A stretch of 45,839 bases of DNA, from NCBI GenBank assembly GCA_937864815.1, contig CALMJY010000236.1, positions 1-45,839 on the forward strand, written 5' to 3'. The DNA is from an uncultured Bacteroidota bacterium (GTDB lineage Bacteria > Bacteroidota > Bacteroidia > Bacteroidales > VadinHA17). The notes under the pieces are model-generated. The model had not been told where the DNA came from and searched no databases. It worked only from the letters and a program-made list of their open reading frames with translations. Shown here in pieces: positions 59 to 17,315 of this stretch (position 1 is its first letter; each line of letters starts with the position of its first letter). The translations under genes were made by a program, and so were the position numbers.

Positions 59-886
59 CTATTTCTCCTCATCTATATCGGAAATTTCACTACCCAGCCT
101 CGCTTTGATACGCTGGAGATCATGCTTCATCCCTGCAACAGCCTGCATAAGCTGTTTTTCAGGTAAAACAGGATCAGGCAACTCACTGCTGATATAATTT
201 ACAAATTTCCATATTTCCTTAACCTCATTAACATGAACCTCATATGGCTCATAAACAGGATTAAGGGAATAGAGAACAAGCTTCCCGTCTTTTTTGAGAT
301 TGTTTTCAACTACCTTAAAGACAATTCCGTCATCGAGTGTAAAAACAATATATGCCTTTCCGCTTATAATATCCATCCAGTCCTGAAGATATTCTCCGGT
401 CACCCACGAACCATCGGGTATAGGAAGCATCGAATCGCCCTTCAGCTGGAATGTTCTGTATTTCTTTTTGTCAGACAAAAATGGCAGTGTGAATACCGGC
501 AGCTCACCGATATATTCAGGATCTGCATACCCTGTGGTATAGCCAGCCTTTGCCTTCTCCGGTACCAGTTCTATGTTTTCCCTGTTGCGGGAGTTAACTG
601 TGGTTGCCAGCACTCTGAGATTACTGCCTTTAACATATGCATCATATCCTCGTTCCAGTTCTCCCAACTGGCTTTCCGAGAGTTTTGATATATCCAGTTT
701 CAGGATTGTATCGATGGATATGTTAAAATATCCTGAAAATGAGATAAGTATCTCAATTCCGGGTTGAGCAACACCGTTCTCATAGCCACTTAGCGTTGAA
801 CGTTTCAGGTTCAGGGCAAATGCCACATCATCCTGGGTCCGCCCTCTCCTTTTTCTTAAAAATTTTATGTTGGAAGCAAAGTACAT
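59..886 (-). CDS. XRE-type repressor with S24/LexA-like self-cleavage domain
   Basis: A 275-residue protein with an N-terminal helix-turn-helix of the XRE/Cro kind (about residues 6-60) and a C-terminal S24 peptidase fold. The LexA-family autocleavage parts are all visible: an Ala114-Gly115 candidate scissile bond, Ser152 in the GDSM motif, and Lys191 in FKVV, 39 residues after the serine (37 in E. coli LexA). A charged C-terminal tail of about 40 residues follows. The family represses its own gene and damage-response genes until RecA-stimulated self-cleavage. Here the gene is divergent from a Y-family polymerase and a DnaE-type polymerase, so I infer it controls them. Its promoter (935-966) overlaps an operator-like palindrome, which argues for autorepression. 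It could also be a phage-type CI-like repressor, but no phage genes are nearby. Confidence 0.9.
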   Translation of the reverse strand: MYFASNIKFLRKRRGRTQDDVAFALNLKRSTLSGYENGVAQPGIEILISFSGYFNISIDTILKLDISKLSESQLGELERGYDAYVKGSNLRVLATTVNSRNRENIELVPEKAKAGYTTGYADPEYIGELPVFTLPFLSDKKKYRTFQLKGDSMLPIPDGSWVTGEYLQDWMDIISGKAYIVFTLDDGIVFKVVENNLKKDGKLVLYSLNPVYEPYEVHVNEVKEIWKFVNYISSELPDPVLPEKQLMQAVAGMKHDLQRIKARLGSEISDIDEEK

Positions 887-897
887 AATTAGAAATT

Positions 898-912
898 GAT
901 TATATTGTAATC
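898..912. promoter_or_regulatory. Operator-like palindrome 1, GATTA-N5-TAATC
   Basis: Inverted repeat with 5-bp arms (GATTA/TAATC) and a 5-bp spacer; one more base pair on each side extends the arms to TGATTA/TAATCA. It lies 12 bp upstream of the repressor start codon, inside the predicted leader. It has the same arms and spacer length as the dyad at 921-935, and the centres are 23 bp apart, about two helical turns, so two dimers could bind on one face. Assignment to the adjacent repressor is inference. Confidence 0.6.
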
Positions 913-918
913 ATTGAA

Positions 919-937
919 TTGATTAATTTTTAATCAA
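919..937. promoter_or_regulatory. Operator-like palindrome 2, TTGATTA-N5-TAATCAA
   Basis: Inverted repeat with 7-bp perfect arms and a 5-bp spacer, sharing its core GATTA-N5-TAATC with the dyad at 898-912. Its right arm overlaps the -7 box of the repressor promoter (935-942, read on the minus strand) and it covers the predicted transcription start. Binding here would block RNA polymerase, as expected for a self-regulating LexA-like repressor. Confidence 0.65.
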
Positions 938-966
938 AAATAAAATATAATTATAATATATACAAG
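935..966 (-). promoter_or_regulatory. Promoter of the S24 repressor gene
   Basis: Read on the minus strand: CTTG (963-966), 20 bp, then TATTTTTG (935-942). This matches the Bacteroidetes housekeeping pattern of TTTG, 19-21 bp, TAnnTTTG with one mismatch in the -33 box. Transcription would start near 928, giving a leader of about 40 nt. Confidence 0.6.
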
Positions 967-1176: not shown

Positions 1177-2433
1177 ATGATACTCTCCGGCAACATAGAA
1201 CGTTCCATACTGCACCTCGACCTCGATACTTTCTTCGTATCGGTGGAGAGGCTGAAGAACAGCAGGCTCATAGGGAAGCCGGTGATAATCGGTGGTCTGT
1301 CTGACCGTGGAGTGGTCGCAAGCTGCAGCTATGAGGCCCGCAAATACGGAGTTAACTCCGCAATGCCCATGAAGCTTGCCAGGAATATGTGTCCCGATGC
1401 CATCATAATACGCGGCGACATGGAGCTTTACAGCAACTACTCAAATATTGTAACCGAAATAATAGCTGAGAGGTCACCTGTCTATGAGAAATCATCTGTT
1501 GATGAGCACTATATCGATCTTACAGGCATGGACCGCTTCTACGGATGTTACAAATGGTCGCATGAGCTGAGACGGTTTATAATGCAGGAAACAGGTCTGC
1601 CAATTTCGATAGGACTGTCGGTAAACAAGACTGTATCGAAGATCGCAACAGGCGAGGCAAAGCCGAACGGAGAAAGAGAGGTACAGAAAGAGCTTGTACT
1701 CCCCTTCCTCGATCCTTTGTCGATAAACAAGATCCCCATGATAGGTCAGAAGACATACCATCTGCTCCGTTCAATGGGAATAGCAACGATCTTTACTCTT
1801 CGGAATATTCCCGCTGAGATGCTGGAGAAACTTATGGGTAAAAATGGTATTGATATATGGAAGAAAGCCAATGGAATAGATTCAACACCTGTATTCAGCT
1901 ACACTGAACAGAAATCTATAAGTACCGAACATACCTTTGACAAGGATACCACCGACATGGTGAGGCTTAACCAGCTGTTTGTAAGCATGGTTGAGAAAAT
2001 TGCATTTGAACTCAGGAAGCAGGAAAAACTCACATCCTGTGTCACTGTTAAAATAAGGTATTCAAACTTTGACACCCACACTCTTCAGAAACGAATACCC
2101 TACACATCATTCGACCATGTGCTTGCCGATGTAACCAAAGAGCTCTTTTCAAGGCTCTACCAGAGAAGAATGCTTATAAGACTCATTGGTGTGAGATTCA
2201 GCCATATGGTAAGAGGAGTCCAGCAGCTCGACATGTTTGACGATACACCTGAAAAGGTAAACCTCTACCTGGCCATGGACAGACTGCGCAGGCGTTTCGG
2301 ACGGGATGCGGTAAAGAGAGCCTCCGGTGTTATGACTCTGGACGAAAAAGAGGAAAAAGCCATCCGACAGCTCGAAAACGCACTGAAAGAGAAGAATATG
2401 ATGGAAGAACGTCTCAGGGGGTACTGGTACTAG
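1177..2433 (+). CDS. dinB: Y-family DNA polymerase (DinB/Pol IV type)
   Basis: A 418-residue translesion polymerase. The catalytic carboxylates are intact: Asp15 in HLDLD, and Asp109-Glu110 in the SSVDE motif. Phe20 sits at the steric-gate position that excludes ribonucleotides. The little-finger region fills roughly residues 240-350, and QQLDMF near residues 348-353 resembles a beta-clamp-binding motif. Because the active site is complete, this is not the catalytically dead ImuB of ImuA-ImuB-DnaE2 mutasomes. It is 79 bp upstream of a DnaE-type polymerase on the same strand, suggesting a two-polymerase operon, and divergent from a LexA-like repressor. The last five codons and the stop fall inside a heptamer tandem repeat. 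ATG at 1177 is the start that leaves a normal Pol IV N-terminus. Confidence 0.93.
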   Translation: MILSGNIERSILHLDLDTFFVSVERLKNSRLIGKPVIIGGLSDRGVVASCSYEARKYGVNSAMPMKLARNMCPDAIIIRGDMELYSNYSNIVTEIIAERSPVYEKSSVDEHYIDLTGMDRFYGCYKWSHELRRFIMQETGLPISIGLSVNKTVSKIATGEAKPNGEREVQKELVLPFLDPLSINKIPMIGQKTYHLLRSMGIATIFTLRNIPAEMLEKLMGKNGIDIWKKANGIDSTPVFSYTEQKSISTEHTFDKDTTDMVRLNQLFVSMVEKIAFELRKQEKLTSCVTVKIRYSNFDTHTLQKRIPYTSFDHVLADVTKELFSRLYQRRMLIRLIGVRFSHMVRGVQQLDMFDDTPEKVNLYLAMDRLRRRFGRDAVKRASGVMTLDEKEEKAIRQLENALKEKNMMEERLRGYWY

Positions 2434-2512: not shown

Positions 2513-5449
2513 ATGTATCTCAATTGCCACTCATATTACAGCCTTCGCTACGGGACAATGTCCGTTGAACAGCTTGTGAAAAAAGCAAAGTCTGCTTCAG
2601 CTGAAACCATTGTTCTGACCGATATAAATAATTCAACTGCCATACCCGACTTTGCAGCAGAATGCAGAAAGAACAGTGTGAGGCCTGTTGCCGGTATAGA
2701 ATTCCGCAACGACAATGAACTGCTTTACATATGTATTGCACGAAATAACAAGGGGTTAAGGGAACTGAATGAATTTCTTTCAGAACATAATATCAACAAG
2801 ACACCAATACCGTTCCCTGCCCCGCAATTCTCTGAAGCATACACCATATACCATCATACAAAAACACCCGGAAGGGAGTTGTATGATAACGAACGGACAG
2901 GGATAACACCAGGTGAGAGAAACAAACTTATCACCATGAATTCTTCATTAAAAAGGAACAGAATGGTGCTTCTTCACCCGGTAACATATGCTGAACCTGA
3001 AGATATATTCATTCATCGCAGCCTGAGAGCTGTTGATAATAATATTCTTCTAAGCCATCTCAAGCCTTCACAATGCGCCGGGGAGGAGGAATTTTTCAAA
3101 GATCCGGGGTATTTTGAAAATATAAAAAAAGAACATCCCTGGCTTGTTGAAAACACTGCAAATCTCATCACCGACTGTGATCTTTACTTTGACAGTGAGA
3201 GTCTCAAGAACAAGAAGCTTTACTCAGCCAGCAGATATGATGACAAGCTTTTGCTTGAAAAGCTTGCCTGGGACGGAATGGTGTATCGCTACGGGAAGAA
3301 AAACTATGAGGCAAAAAAGAGAGTCGCTCATGAACTTGAAATAATTGACAGGCTGGGTTTCTCTGCCTACTTCCTTATTACCTGGGATATTGTAAGATAC
3401 TCGATGGCCCGCGGATTTTATCATGTTGGCAGAGGAAGCGGTGCAAATTCTGTAGTTGCTTACTGCCTGAAAATCACCAATGTTGACCCCATTGATCTGA
3501 ACCTTTACTTTGAACGGTTCATCAACCCGAAACGAAGCAGTCCCCCCGATTTTGACATAGATTATTCCTGGAAGGAAAGAGATGAAGTGATCGATTATAT
3601 ATTCAAGAGATATGGTTACAGCCATACAGCCCTTCTTGGAACTATAAACACATTCCGGGGTAAGTCGATCGTAAGGGAACTTGGCAAGGTACACGGACTT
3701 CCGAAGGAAGAGATTGATTGCCTGATCGATAATCCTTCTTCTGATACTAACAGAAACGAAATAACCGAAACTATATTTTCAACAGGCCTTAAGATAGCTG
3801 ATTTCCCGAATATGAGAAGCATTCATGCAGGAGGCATACTTATATCCGAGGATCCCGTCACCTGCTATACAGCACTCGACATGCCACCTAAAGGATTTCC
3901 CACAACGCAATGGGATATGTACACTGCAGAGGAGATTGGTTTTGAAAAGCTTGATATACTCAGTCAGAGAGGAATAGGCCATATACGTGAAAGTGCCGAG
4001 ATAATACTTCAGAACAGGGCAATAGATGTTGATGTACATGCTATCCATAAATTTAAGGAAGATCAGTTGGTAAAAGAATATCTGAGAAACGGAGAGACCA
4101 AGGGATGCTTCTATGTGGAAAGTCCTGCAATGAGAGGTTTGCTGAAAAAACTGAAGTGCGACAATTACACATCCCTTGTTGCTGCAAGCTCGGTGATCAG
4201 GCCGGGAGTAGCACGGTCGGGTATGATGAAGCAATATATCTACAGGTTCCACAATCCTGACAAATTCGAATATATACATCCTGTAATGAAGGAGCAGCTT
4301 GAAGAAACATTCGGAGTGATGGTTTACCAGGAAGATGTTCTGAAAGTATGCCACCACTTTGCGGGACTTGATCTGGCCGATGCCGATACATTGAGAAGGG
4401 CAATGAGCGGGAAATTCAGATCGAAGCAGGAAATGCAGCGCATAGTCGACAAATTTTTCTTCAACTGCCGTCAGAAGGGTTATAGTGAAGAGGTAACACG
4501 TGAGGTATGGAGACAGATCGAGTCGTTTGCCGGATACTCTTTCTCCAAGGCGCATTCAGCATCGTATGCTGTTGAGAGTTTCCAAAGCCTCTATCTGAAA
4601 GCCCATTTCCCCCTGGAGTTCATGGTTGCAGTTATAAATAATTTCGGAGGCTTCTACCGGACATGGGTATACGTTCACGAAGCACGAAGATACGGTGCCA
4701 GTATTGAACTCCCCTGTGTTAATATGAGCAAATACAAGACATGTATCTATGGAACAGACATATACATAGGTTTTATACATATAATGAGTCTCGAATTCAA
4801 TCTTGCCCAGTCTATCGAAACTGTCCGGAACGAAGCAGGTCCTTTCAAAGATCTTAACGACTTTGTTACCAGGGTTGCTCCCGGACTTGAGCAGGTAATC
4901 CTGCTTATAAAAGCAGGTGCCTTCAGATTCACAGGTAAGAACAAGTCTGTACTCCTGTGGGAAGCCCATATGATGATAAATAAGAACAAGTCTGAGAATA
5001 TACGCCCGCTCTTCTCCTCTCCTGTTAAAAAATTTGTACTTCCTGAGCTGGTGCAGAGCAAAACAGAAGATGTATATGATGAGATAGAGTTATTCGGATT
5101 TCCCGTTACCGTGAGCTGGTTCGATATGCTGGAAACATCATTCAGGGGTGAGATTACTGCACATAGAATGATCGAATATACAGGCCGTACAGTAAGGATG
5201 GTAGGACACCTTGTTACAGTGAAATATATTAAGACAGCAAAGAATGACTGGATGAACTTCGGATGCTTCATAGATGCCGAAGGGAGCTTTTTTGACACTG
5301 TTCATTTTTCCCAGTCTTTGAAATCATGGCCTTTCAAGGGAAGCGGAACATACCTGCTTCTTGGAAAAATTGTTGAGGAATTCGGATTTCCGTCTCTTGA
5401 AGTTGAAAAGATGGCCAGGCTTCCGGTTAAACCTGACCAGAGGTATTAA
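2513..5449 (+). CDS. dnaE2: DnaE-type DNA polymerase III alpha subunit, short error-prone-like form
   Basis: A 978-residue C-family polymerase, shorter than replicative DnaE (about 1,160) and close to the error-prone DnaE2/ImuC class. Order: PHP domain (about 1-65, with a region to 230), palm and fingers with GRGSGANS (307-314) and the catalytic aspartates of PDFDID (346 and 348) plus Asp481 in EKLDIL, helix-hairpin-helix region (LIKAGAF), and a C-terminal OB fold near 900-960. The PHP metal site is eroded: the usual HxH near residue 4 reads N-C-H, and the TDH motif reads TDI at 36-38, so intrinsic proofreading is unlikely. Its place after dinB under a LexA-like repressor suggests damage-induced, mutagenic synthesis rather than chromosome replication. 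The dnaE2 symbol is by analogy. It converges with the RelA/SpoT gene with a gap of only 6 bp. Confidence 0.88.
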   Translation: MYLNCHSYYSLRYGTMSVEQLVKKAKSASAETIVLTDINNSTAIPDFAAECRKNSVRPVAGIEFRNDNELLYICIARNNKGLRELNEFLSEHNINKTPIPFPAPQFSEAYTIYHHTKTPGRELYDNERTGITPGERNKLITMNSSLKRNRMVLLHPVTYAEPEDIFIHRSLRAVDNNILLSHLKPSQCAGEEEFFKDPGYFENIKKEHPWLVENTANLITDCDLYFDSESLKNKKLYSASRYDDKLLLEKLAWDGMVYRYGKKNYEAKKRVAHELEIIDRLGFSAYFLITWDIVRYSMARGFYHVGRGSGANSVVAYCLKITNVDPIDLNLYFERFINPKRSSPPDFDIDYSWKERDEVIDYIFKRYGYSHTALLGTINTFRGKSIVRELGKVHGLPKEEIDCLIDNPSSDTNRNEITETIFSTGLKIADFPNMRSIHAGGILISEDPVTCYTALDMPPKGFPTTQWDMYTAEEIGFEKLDILSQRGIGHIRESAEIILQNRAIDVDVHAIHKFKEDQLVKEYLRNGETKGCFYVESPAMRGLLKKLKCDNYTSLVAASSVIRPGVARSGMMKQYIYRFHNPDKFEYIHPVMKEQLEETFGVMVYQEDVLKVCHHFAGLDLADADTLRRAMSGKFRSKQEMQRIVDKFFFNCRQKGYSEEVTREVWRQIESFAGYSFSKAHSASYAVESFQSLYLKAHFPLEFMVAVINNFGGFYRTWVYVHEARRYGASIELPCVNMSKYKTCIYGTDIYIGFIHIMSLEFNLAQSIETVRNEAGPFKDLNDFVTRVAPGLEQVILLIKAGAFRFTGKNKSVLLWEAHMMINKNKSENIRPLFSSPVKKFVLPELVQSKTEDVYDEIELFGFPVTVSWFDMLETSFRGEITAHRMIEYTGRTVRMVGHLVTVKYIKTAKNDWMNFGCFIDAEGSFFDTVHFSQSLKSWPFKGSGTYLLLGKIVEEFGFPSLEVEKMARLPVKPDQRY

Positions 5450-15929: not shown

Positions 15930-17315
15930 TTACTCAGGCTTAAAGTTTATTGCAGCTTCGTCATCGAATTCATTTTCTGATCGTGCTATAACAGCAGTAG
16001 CAAGGCAATTACCAATTACATTAACAGCTGTGCGGGCCATATCCATAAGTACATCAATACCAAGGATAATAAAAATAGGTTCTACCGGAAGTTTAAAGGT
16101 AACAGCTGTGCCCAGCAGTATAACGAGGGAAGCCCTTGATACTCCAGCGACTCCCTTACTGGTAAGCATCAGGGTAAGGCATATTATTATCTGCTTATCA
16201 AGTGGAAGATCAATACCGGCTGCCTGGGCTACAAAAATTGTTGCAAGCGAGAGGTATAATGTTGTACCATCGAGGTTAAAACTATAACCTGTTGGAATAA
16301 CGAAAGCTACTATCTTTCTGGGAATACCGAATTTTTCCATTGATTCCATTGCAGAAGGAAGTGCTGATTCCGAATTGGATGTAGCAAATGCAATTGTAGC
16401 AGGTTCTGATACAGCCCGGATGAATGGTTTTATTGGTATACTGAAAAACATGGCAACAGGGACCAGTATAAAAAGTATGAATACAATTAGTGCAACGTAC
16501 AGTGTTGCAAGCAGTTTAAAAAGATTATAAAGGATATCGAGTCCCATATGCCCTACCGTATATGCAATAGCTGCAAATACTGCTACCGGGGCAAAATACA
16601 TTACTATATTCGTAAATTTAAACATAGCCTCGGCCAGGCTTTCGGAAAAACGAATTAATGGAGACCGGTATTTTTCCTTAAGCATCGCTACTGCAATTCC
16701 AAAAATAATACTGAAAACCACGATTTGCAGAATCTGTCCTTCGTAAATAGCCTTTGCAAAATTCTCAGGAAAAATATGAAGGATGAAATCACTTGTTGAT
16801 TGAGCTTTAATGGAAGTGATTTCAGGTACATCAGGATTTGGAGGCAGTACTATTCCAACTCCTGCTTTGCTTATATTAATTGCCAGCAATCCTATGAATA
16901 ATGCTATAGTAGATACAATCTCAAAGTAAAGAAGAGACTTCCATCCCATTCTGCCAACCTGTTTGATATCTGCATGTCCGGCAATTCCAACCACAAGTGT
17001 TGAAAAGAGCAATGGTGCAATGATAGTCTTAACCATTCTTAAAAAAATATCGCTCAATACCTTCAGGTCTTTACCAACAGATGGGATATCGTATCCGAAT
17101 TCTGCCCCGGCCACCATAGAAACTAATATCCAGGTAGTAAGTGATTTTTTCCGGAAAGCGTATATTATAAGAACAGCAACGCTCATTAACCGGAATACCA
17201 AAAGCAGGTTTGAATTAAAATCAAACCACTTATTTGCCTGGAAAACAAGCATAATCAAGGTAATGGTAATAATACCAATTATTAAAAATGGAAATGCTTT
17301 CCAGATCCTGTTCAT
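15930..17315 (-). CDS. Sodium/proton-dicarboxylate (glutamate) symporter, DAACS family
   Basis: A 461-residue inner-membrane carrier from the ATG at 17315. An upstream ATG (17438) would add 41 residues but reads back through the SlyD C-terminus, so I reject it. Hydrophobic helices run from about residue 6 onward. The family signatures are present: serine-rich ATSNSESALP before hairpin 1, the ion-binding NLDGT (usually NMDGT), and TSKGVAGVSRAS for the second hairpin; the C-terminal helix contains DVLMDMARTAVNVIGN with Asp and Arg at substrate-binding positions. It should import C4-dicarboxylates or acidic amino acids. It starts 19 bp after slyD and is probably cotranscribed. Confidence 0.93.
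   Translation of the reverse strand: MNRIWKAFPFLIIGIITITLIMLVFQANKWFDFNSNLLLVFRLMSVAVLIIYAFRKKSLTTWILVSMVAGAEFGYDIPSVGKDLKVLSDIFLRMVKTIIAPLLFSTLVVGIAGHADIKQVGRMGWKSLLYFEIVSTIALFIGLLAINISKAGVGIVLPPNPDVPEITSIKAQSTSDFILHIFPENFAKAIYEGQILQIVVFSIIFGIAVAMLKEKYRSPLIRFSESLAEAMFKFTNIVMYFAPVAVFAAIAYTVGHMGLDILYNLFKLLATLYVALIVFILFILVPVAMFFSIPIKPFIRAVSEPATIAFATSNSESALPSAMESMEKFGIPRKIVAFVIPTGYSFNLDGTTLYLSLATIFVAQAAGIDLPLDKQIIICLTLMLTSKGVAGVSRASLVILLGTAVTFKLPVEPIFIILGIDVLMDMARTAVNVIGNCLATAVIARSENEFDDEAAINFKPE

Follow-up and report, generated by a model that had tools for sequence, protein, structure and literature searches.

A probable SOS control locus of Bacteroidales with a non-canonical LexA homologue and a putative tandem GATTA-N5-TAATC operator

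Comparative analysis of a 45,839-nucleotide stretch of DNA from an uncultured Bacteroidales bacterium (the whole stretch is referred to as the window) indicated that the locus at its start very probably (probability about 0.82) controls the SOS response of this lineage through a repressor homologous to the non-canonical LexA proteins of Bacteroidetes. The following features were located, with positions counted from the first letter of the window.

59-886, minus strand: predicted S24 repressor of the self-cleaving type, 275 amino acids (Pfam HTH_3 and Peptidase_S24), homologue of the Bacteroidetes non-canonical LexA
898-912 (extended, 897-913): putative operator O1, repressor proximal, GATTA-TATTG-TAATC, exact, half-sites of 2.0 and 1.77 bits
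921-935 (extended, 919-937): putative operator O2, distal, GATTA-ATTTT-TAATC, exact, half-sites of 1.95 and 1.91 bits, overlapping the repressor -7 box
935-942, minus strand: TAnnTTTG, the repressor -7 box, whose last base is the first G of O2 on the minus strand
963-965, minus strand: TTG, the repressor -33 element, separated by 20 bp from the TA in the -7 box
919-946, plus strand: weakly predicted polymerase promoter, with TTG at 919-921 and TA at 941-942; its -33 part would lie under O2
1003-1142: paired inverted repeat of 140 bp, REP/MITE-like, in the polymerase leader
1177-2433, plus strand: Y-family (DinB-like) DNA polymerase (Pfam IMS and IMS_C), divergent from the repressor
2513-5449, plus strand: DnaE-like DNA polymerase III alpha subunit (Pfam DNA_pol3_alpha, finger and PHP), downstream of the Y-polymerase

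Canonical LexA of Escherichia coli cleaves itself through an S24 domain and controls error-prone polymerases. The same logic of self-cleavage and polymerase control is predicted for the window repressor, and comparison favored the preliminary description of this DNA, which had read the gene as a LexA-type S24 repressor. A difference from canonical LexA was detected in the DNA-binding part: the Pfam scan returned HTH_3 (E 6.8e-14) and Peptidase_S24 (E 3.7e-07), both above the cut-off, and the LexA winged-helix domain (PF01726) was not among the matches, which were to HTH_3, HTH_19, HTH_31 and S24 only. The residues named earlier as the cleavage apparatus, Ala114-Gly115, Ser152 and Lys191, were found in the window repressor at exactly those positions, and an A-G cleavage site together with S and K was present in 79/79 aligned close and Bacteroidales repressors, the window included. 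Among 29 class relatives, S and K were retained in all, A in 25 and G in 25; Met-Gly or Ala-Ser replaced Ala-Gly in L294 to L297 and L271 to L274, with the Ser-Lys dyad retained. A phmmer search of solved structures matched the repressor over its HTH part only (query residues 3-90) and returned no S24 chain. The repressor was the single S24 protein with an HTH in its own genome, and a candidate second S24 regulator (contig C187) was rejected as a signal-peptidase-like frame in which no HTH was seen.

Both same-core dyads of the preliminary description, 23 bp apart, were recovered as exact sites, and O1 and O2 were the only exact copies of GATTA-N5-TAATC in the 45,839 bases. Dinucleotide shuffles (n = 100) gave a mean of 0.08 exact sites per window, and none contained two. 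A single dyad would be unremarkable, since perfect 5-N5-5 dyads number 72 in the window. As a pair of same-core dyads separated by 15 to 60 bp, O1 and O2 stood alone in the window, and no such pair arose in 100 local shuffles. With a weight matrix built from repressor operators, the two sites scored 23.0 and 20.9, and no other place in the window exceeded 6.6 (position 16183). The same scan detected no matching dyad at 940-1176, as had been noted before.

Conservation of the pair was examined in reference genomes, in which 524 stretches encoding repressor relatives were detected and the best 80 were retained; L058 had no upstream DNA, and 79 relatives plus the window were compared. A close set of 62 loci (window included) had at least 75% repressor identity, and a distant set of 18 loci had 62 to 69%. 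Allowing up to one mismatch in each dyad, the tandem pair was present in 62/62 close loci, and both dyads were exact in 40. Spacing was 23 bp in 60 of these loci and 24 bp in 2, and shuffled upstream regions yielded the pair in 0/4,000 cases. Absence of the dyads from relatives, which had been put forward as grounds for abandoning the operators, was thus not seen in the close set; in the distant set, the pair was detected at the same threshold in only 5/18 loci and any site in 9/18. The close loci are related and hence are not independent trials, yet their flanks have diverged: in 60 loci (two containing N were dropped), the half-sites carried 1.77 to 2.0 bits, compared to 0.88 between the dyads and 0.84 over positions 947-990. 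By eye, L107, L110, L112, L114, L115 and L118 (63 to 65% identity) seemingly had two sites approximately 24 bp apart with one half intact (TGAYTA) and the other drifted (e.g., ACGTCA), as if the motif were changing. The O1 spacer (903-907; CAATA on the repressor strand) was as conserved as the half-sites, at 1.92 bits, and the O2 spacer carried 1.48 bits. As electrophoretic mobility shift assays (EMSA) of published repressors found spacer substitutions harmless for binding, according to the available text of PMC8565304, the O1 spacer may serve something else, and its conservation does not follow from the switch model.

A Bacteroidetes promoter whose -7 box overlaps the distal dyad had also been proposed, and this arrangement proved to be widely kept. 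TAnnTTTG joined to O2, with a TTG 19 or 20 bp upstream, was present in 59/62 close loci; two of the three exceptions had undetermined bases in an element and the third (L092) had no TTG. These elements fit the Bacteroides consensus as quoted in PMC7366714, in the portion consulted. A plain consensus scan of the region found 2 promoters versus 1.8 expected, which is not above chance. Repressor bound at O2 should block its own promoter.

The divergent Y-family polymerase adjoined the repressor in 72/80 loci. The contig ended within 365 bp in L042, L045, L058, L085 and L090, and the polymerase was absent beside the repressor in L103, L119 and L120. Between the repressor start and the polymerase match lay 93 to 825 bp. 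The gap of 290 bp in the window is explained by the 140-bp repeat and flanking DNA that sit in it. The 11-base core of this repeat, CTCGCAATGAC, is found in 22 copies genome-wide, of which contig C323 has ten, and a similar element occupies the same gap in eight relatives (L042, L043, L044, L046, L049, L053, L054 and L057); a different repeat lies there in L048. Tandem arrays with a 7-bp unit were also observed in the window, namely CTTCCGG (7.6 copies, 3-55), just beyond the end of the repressor gene, and GGGTACT and AACCAGC (2419-2493), in and after the end of the Y-polymerase gene.

The dyads could be purely autoregulatory, with the polymerases driven from a separate promoter, unregulated or differently regulated, nearer their start. 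The polymerase start in the window is 240 bp from O2, its predicted promoter is weak and the region 940-1176 lacks a dyad, all of which would suit such an arrangement. We nevertheless consider it unlikely: in L047, L060 and L109, which lack an insert, the two starts are only approximately 95 bp apart, and the DNA between them consists mostly of the dyads and the repressor promoter. This compact gap indicates that the polymerases need no remote site, and the weaker site or action over distance that the preliminary description had entertained for them becomes unnecessary, the compact divergent region of relatives being lengthened here by the inserted repeat. The TTG at 919-921 and TA at 941-942 have a workable promoter spacing; the TA is invariant but is also part of the repressor's -7 box. 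With so little DNA between the two starts in compact relatives, the O1/O2 pair looks like a shared bidirectional operator.

Sites before other genes were then considered, as the preliminary description had suggested that hits of the dyad might precede repair genes. Across 25 genomes of the genus, 60 exact copies of TGATTA-N5-TAATCA were counted, compared to 5 of a reversed control. Thirty-seven of the 60 were at the repressor; 20 of the remaining 23 were inspected, and 7 of these preceded one of three gene families while 13 showed no recurring gene. The own genome contained 37 sites at one mismatch or fewer (control, 8), most of them in or before unrelated genes. Upstream regions of orthologues, with families assigned by Pfam and NCBIfam, were scored with the repressor-operator matrix. 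Scores of at least 12 were obtained for 6/10 Zn_ribbon_2 genes, with the site starting 28 to 31 bp before the gene start. Four of these six (L239 to L242) had been found by protein search alone, and the four negatives were the weakest matches. A DUF2461 gene was divergent across the Zn_ribbon_2 site in both loci read (L161 and L199). For TIGR03916, a radical-SAM protein linked to UDG and presumably the same family as COG4277, 3/5 regions reached this score, comprising all three genus members; these positives are not independent, as all three were also pattern hits. For DUF3795 the proportion was 5/11, seven weaker matches being left out; three positives were likewise pattern hits and hence not independent, and two (L253 and L254) were independent of the pattern. 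None of 149 control ORF starts scored 12 or above; in an earlier control set, 1/442 scored at least 18.9, and the few high scores came mostly from one recA coding stretch. The tandem layout was echoed by a weaker second site 24 bp further upstream in two Zn-ribbon loci (L239 and L240) and, by eye, by a half-site 23 bp further upstream in L247 and L248.

Other candidate targets were rejected. No recA upstream region carried the site (0/30 loci scored, from 41 genomes searched; best score, 5.3). Several recA genes carry a dyad-like stretch, perfect in G007, approximately 29 bp beyond where the family match stops; it was taken as coding chance because in G007 it lies inside the recA frame. A site with one mismatch lay 24 bp before gyrB in the own genome, which drew attention because topoisomerase IV is among the published targets (PMC8565304); no strong site recurred in orthologue upstream regions (best 30 of the matches listed); three of these regions scored 7.6, 9.2 and 9.4, just above the control maximum of 7.3, at unrelated places 129 to 196 bp away. 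Neither recN, ruvB, uvr nor ssb was recognized beside the own-genome sites at one mismatch or fewer. The suggestion that hits precede repair genes therefore held for one known SOS-type repair gene and not for recA, the other recurring hits falling before three uncharacterized families, Zn-ribbon, DUF2461 and DUF3795, which are candidate damage genes by virtue of the predicted sites. Loci from other families of the order had a Y-polymerase (L124) or SRAP (L125) gene on the far side of the dyads. A repressor homologue of 41% identity (L250; G047:C112) was divergent from the radical-SAM repair gene, a predicted target elsewhere, with no GATTA site between them.

These distributions also bear on the origin of the repressor. 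It might be a CI repressor of prophage type, whether resident or domesticated recently, with control limited to itself and its neighbor and no wider regulon; lambda CI-type repressors share its HTH type, S24 domain and paired operators, PHROGs matched it to phage repressors (phrog_4, E 1.1e-18) and its sites are strongest at the repressor itself. Such an origin appears unlikely, as the same chromosomal polymerase neighbor is found in 72/80 loci, the genes beyond the repressor in 11 loci show no phage sign by eye, and, in contrast to CI-type systems, scattered sites recur before the non-phage Zn-ribbon, TIGR03916 and DUF3795 genes. Least likely is that the GATTA dyads are read by some other DNA-binding protein, with the S24 repressor as only one of its targets: binding of the repressor to the dyads is a prediction, and one genome (G002, 75% complete) combines a dyad ahead of TIGR03916 with no repressor match, but throughout the repressor clade the dyads and promoter sit at the start of the repressor gene itself, and published members of the family are known to bind N5 dyads within the promoters of their own genes (PMC8565304). 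We infer that the S24 repressor itself reads the dyads.

The earlier statement that such sites are poorly described in the phylum was overturned by PMC8565304 (2021), which, in the text available, defines a Bacteroidetes non-canonical LexA family with an N-terminal penta-helical HTH (PF01381) and a C-terminal S24 domain (PF00717) and reports N5-spaced dyads supported by EMSA and mitomycin C induction. The sites given there are CTAA-N5-TTAG and GGA-N5-TCC and, across from an error-prone polymerase in Elizabethkingia anophelis, the diverged TTAC-N5-GTAA; motif discovery on further homologues recovered only the two main motifs. Targets include dinB-dnaE, a UDG operon (COG1573-COG4277), topoisomerase IV and, with regulation that varies by species, recA alongside further core SOS genes, and both repressor groups are reported as absent from the order Bacteroidales (PMC8565304).

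Repressor matches were detected in 74/296 genomes of a phylum sample. The window repressor was 36 to 48% identical to its 29 class relatives, of which 9 had CTAA-N5-TTAG, 1 (L294) had the published TTAC-AAATT-GTAA and 13 had a divergent Y-polymerase; homology to the published groups was found as judged through those class relatives that carry published motifs. In a tree rooted only at its midpoint, the window repressor grouped in a 30-row clade (95/95), of which 29 rows were the window and its relatives from the reference-genome scan, and the CTAA clade was separate (97/91). A helix stretch that we take to be the recognition helix reads KRSTLSGYEN in the window repressor and resembles KRSLVGAYEE in the CTAA clade. 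Its own promoter contains neither published motif but has GATTA-N5-TAATC in the same N5 layout. This mismatch of core limits membership of a group and not of the family, because PMC8565304 itself reports diverged cores. By position, error-prone polymerases are among the predicted targets, the dyads lying between the repressor and the divergent Y-polymerase in the 72/80 loci with this neighbor.

The CTAA-N5-TTAG group therein described shares with the window repressor HTH_3 plus S24, the cleavage residues, N5 dyads in its own promoter and, as targets that are here predicted, dinB/dnaE and the UDG-linked radical-SAM gene (PMC8565304). The window repressor differs as a separate Bacteroidales branch with a GATTA-N5-TAATC motif, other recognition-helix residues, a 23-bp tandem layout and no recA site. 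The E. anophelis variant is likewise a repressor divergent from an error-prone polymerase with an N5 dyad (PMC8565304), whereas its core is different and four related class members have Met-Gly for Ala-Gly. NCBI ranks placed 57 of the 80 repressor contigs in Bacteroidales and 2 in Marinilabiliales, and 21 had no order (metagenome assembly names). Within the order the repressor was patchy, with a strong match in 32/36 genus genomes and 8/24 from other families. No literature report of the GATTA dyad as a Bacteroidetes LexA palindrome was found, the comparison covering the palindromes given in the main text of PMC8565304, and the available part of a 2025 review of gut Bacteroidales (PMC12632263) does not mention SOS, LexA or DNA damage.

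In the mechanism that we propose, repressor dimers would bind the two TGATTA-N5-TAATCA dyads 23 bp apart and block a compact divergent promoter region, O2 containing the TTTG of the repressor's -7 box. Because this promoter region would be shared, the repressor and the Y-polymerase/DnaE pair would be shut off together. Upon DNA damage, RecA filaments would induce the S152/K191 dyad to cut at A114-G115, which would free the polymerase cassette and a small regulon made up of the radical-SAM repair gene, the Zn-ribbon/DUF2461 pair and, in relatives, DUF3795. The inserted repeat of the window would provide a long polymerase leader and not a remote operator. We give even odds to the more specific proposal of a separate Bacteroidales branch of SOS repressors, with a 23-bp tandem operator fused to the -7 box and common to both divergent genes and a small recA-less regulon that includes Zn_ribbon_2/DUF2461 and DUF3795 as previously unrecognized SOS genes.

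The repressor family, the non-canonical LexA of Bacteroidetes, is already known (PMC8565304). What is new is the apparent occurrence of the family in environmental Bacteroidales, its tandem GATTA-N5-TAATC motif and a small predicted regulon without recA. Judged by comparison, the arrangement is real and well conserved, and it is very probably an SOS-type switch and not an unknown system. With 57/80 repressor contigs in Bacteroidales, part of this order probably has an inducible response to damage. The operator is defined sharply enough to be tested directly for binding, and the changed helix beside a changed motif offers a test case for the divergence of SOS boxes.
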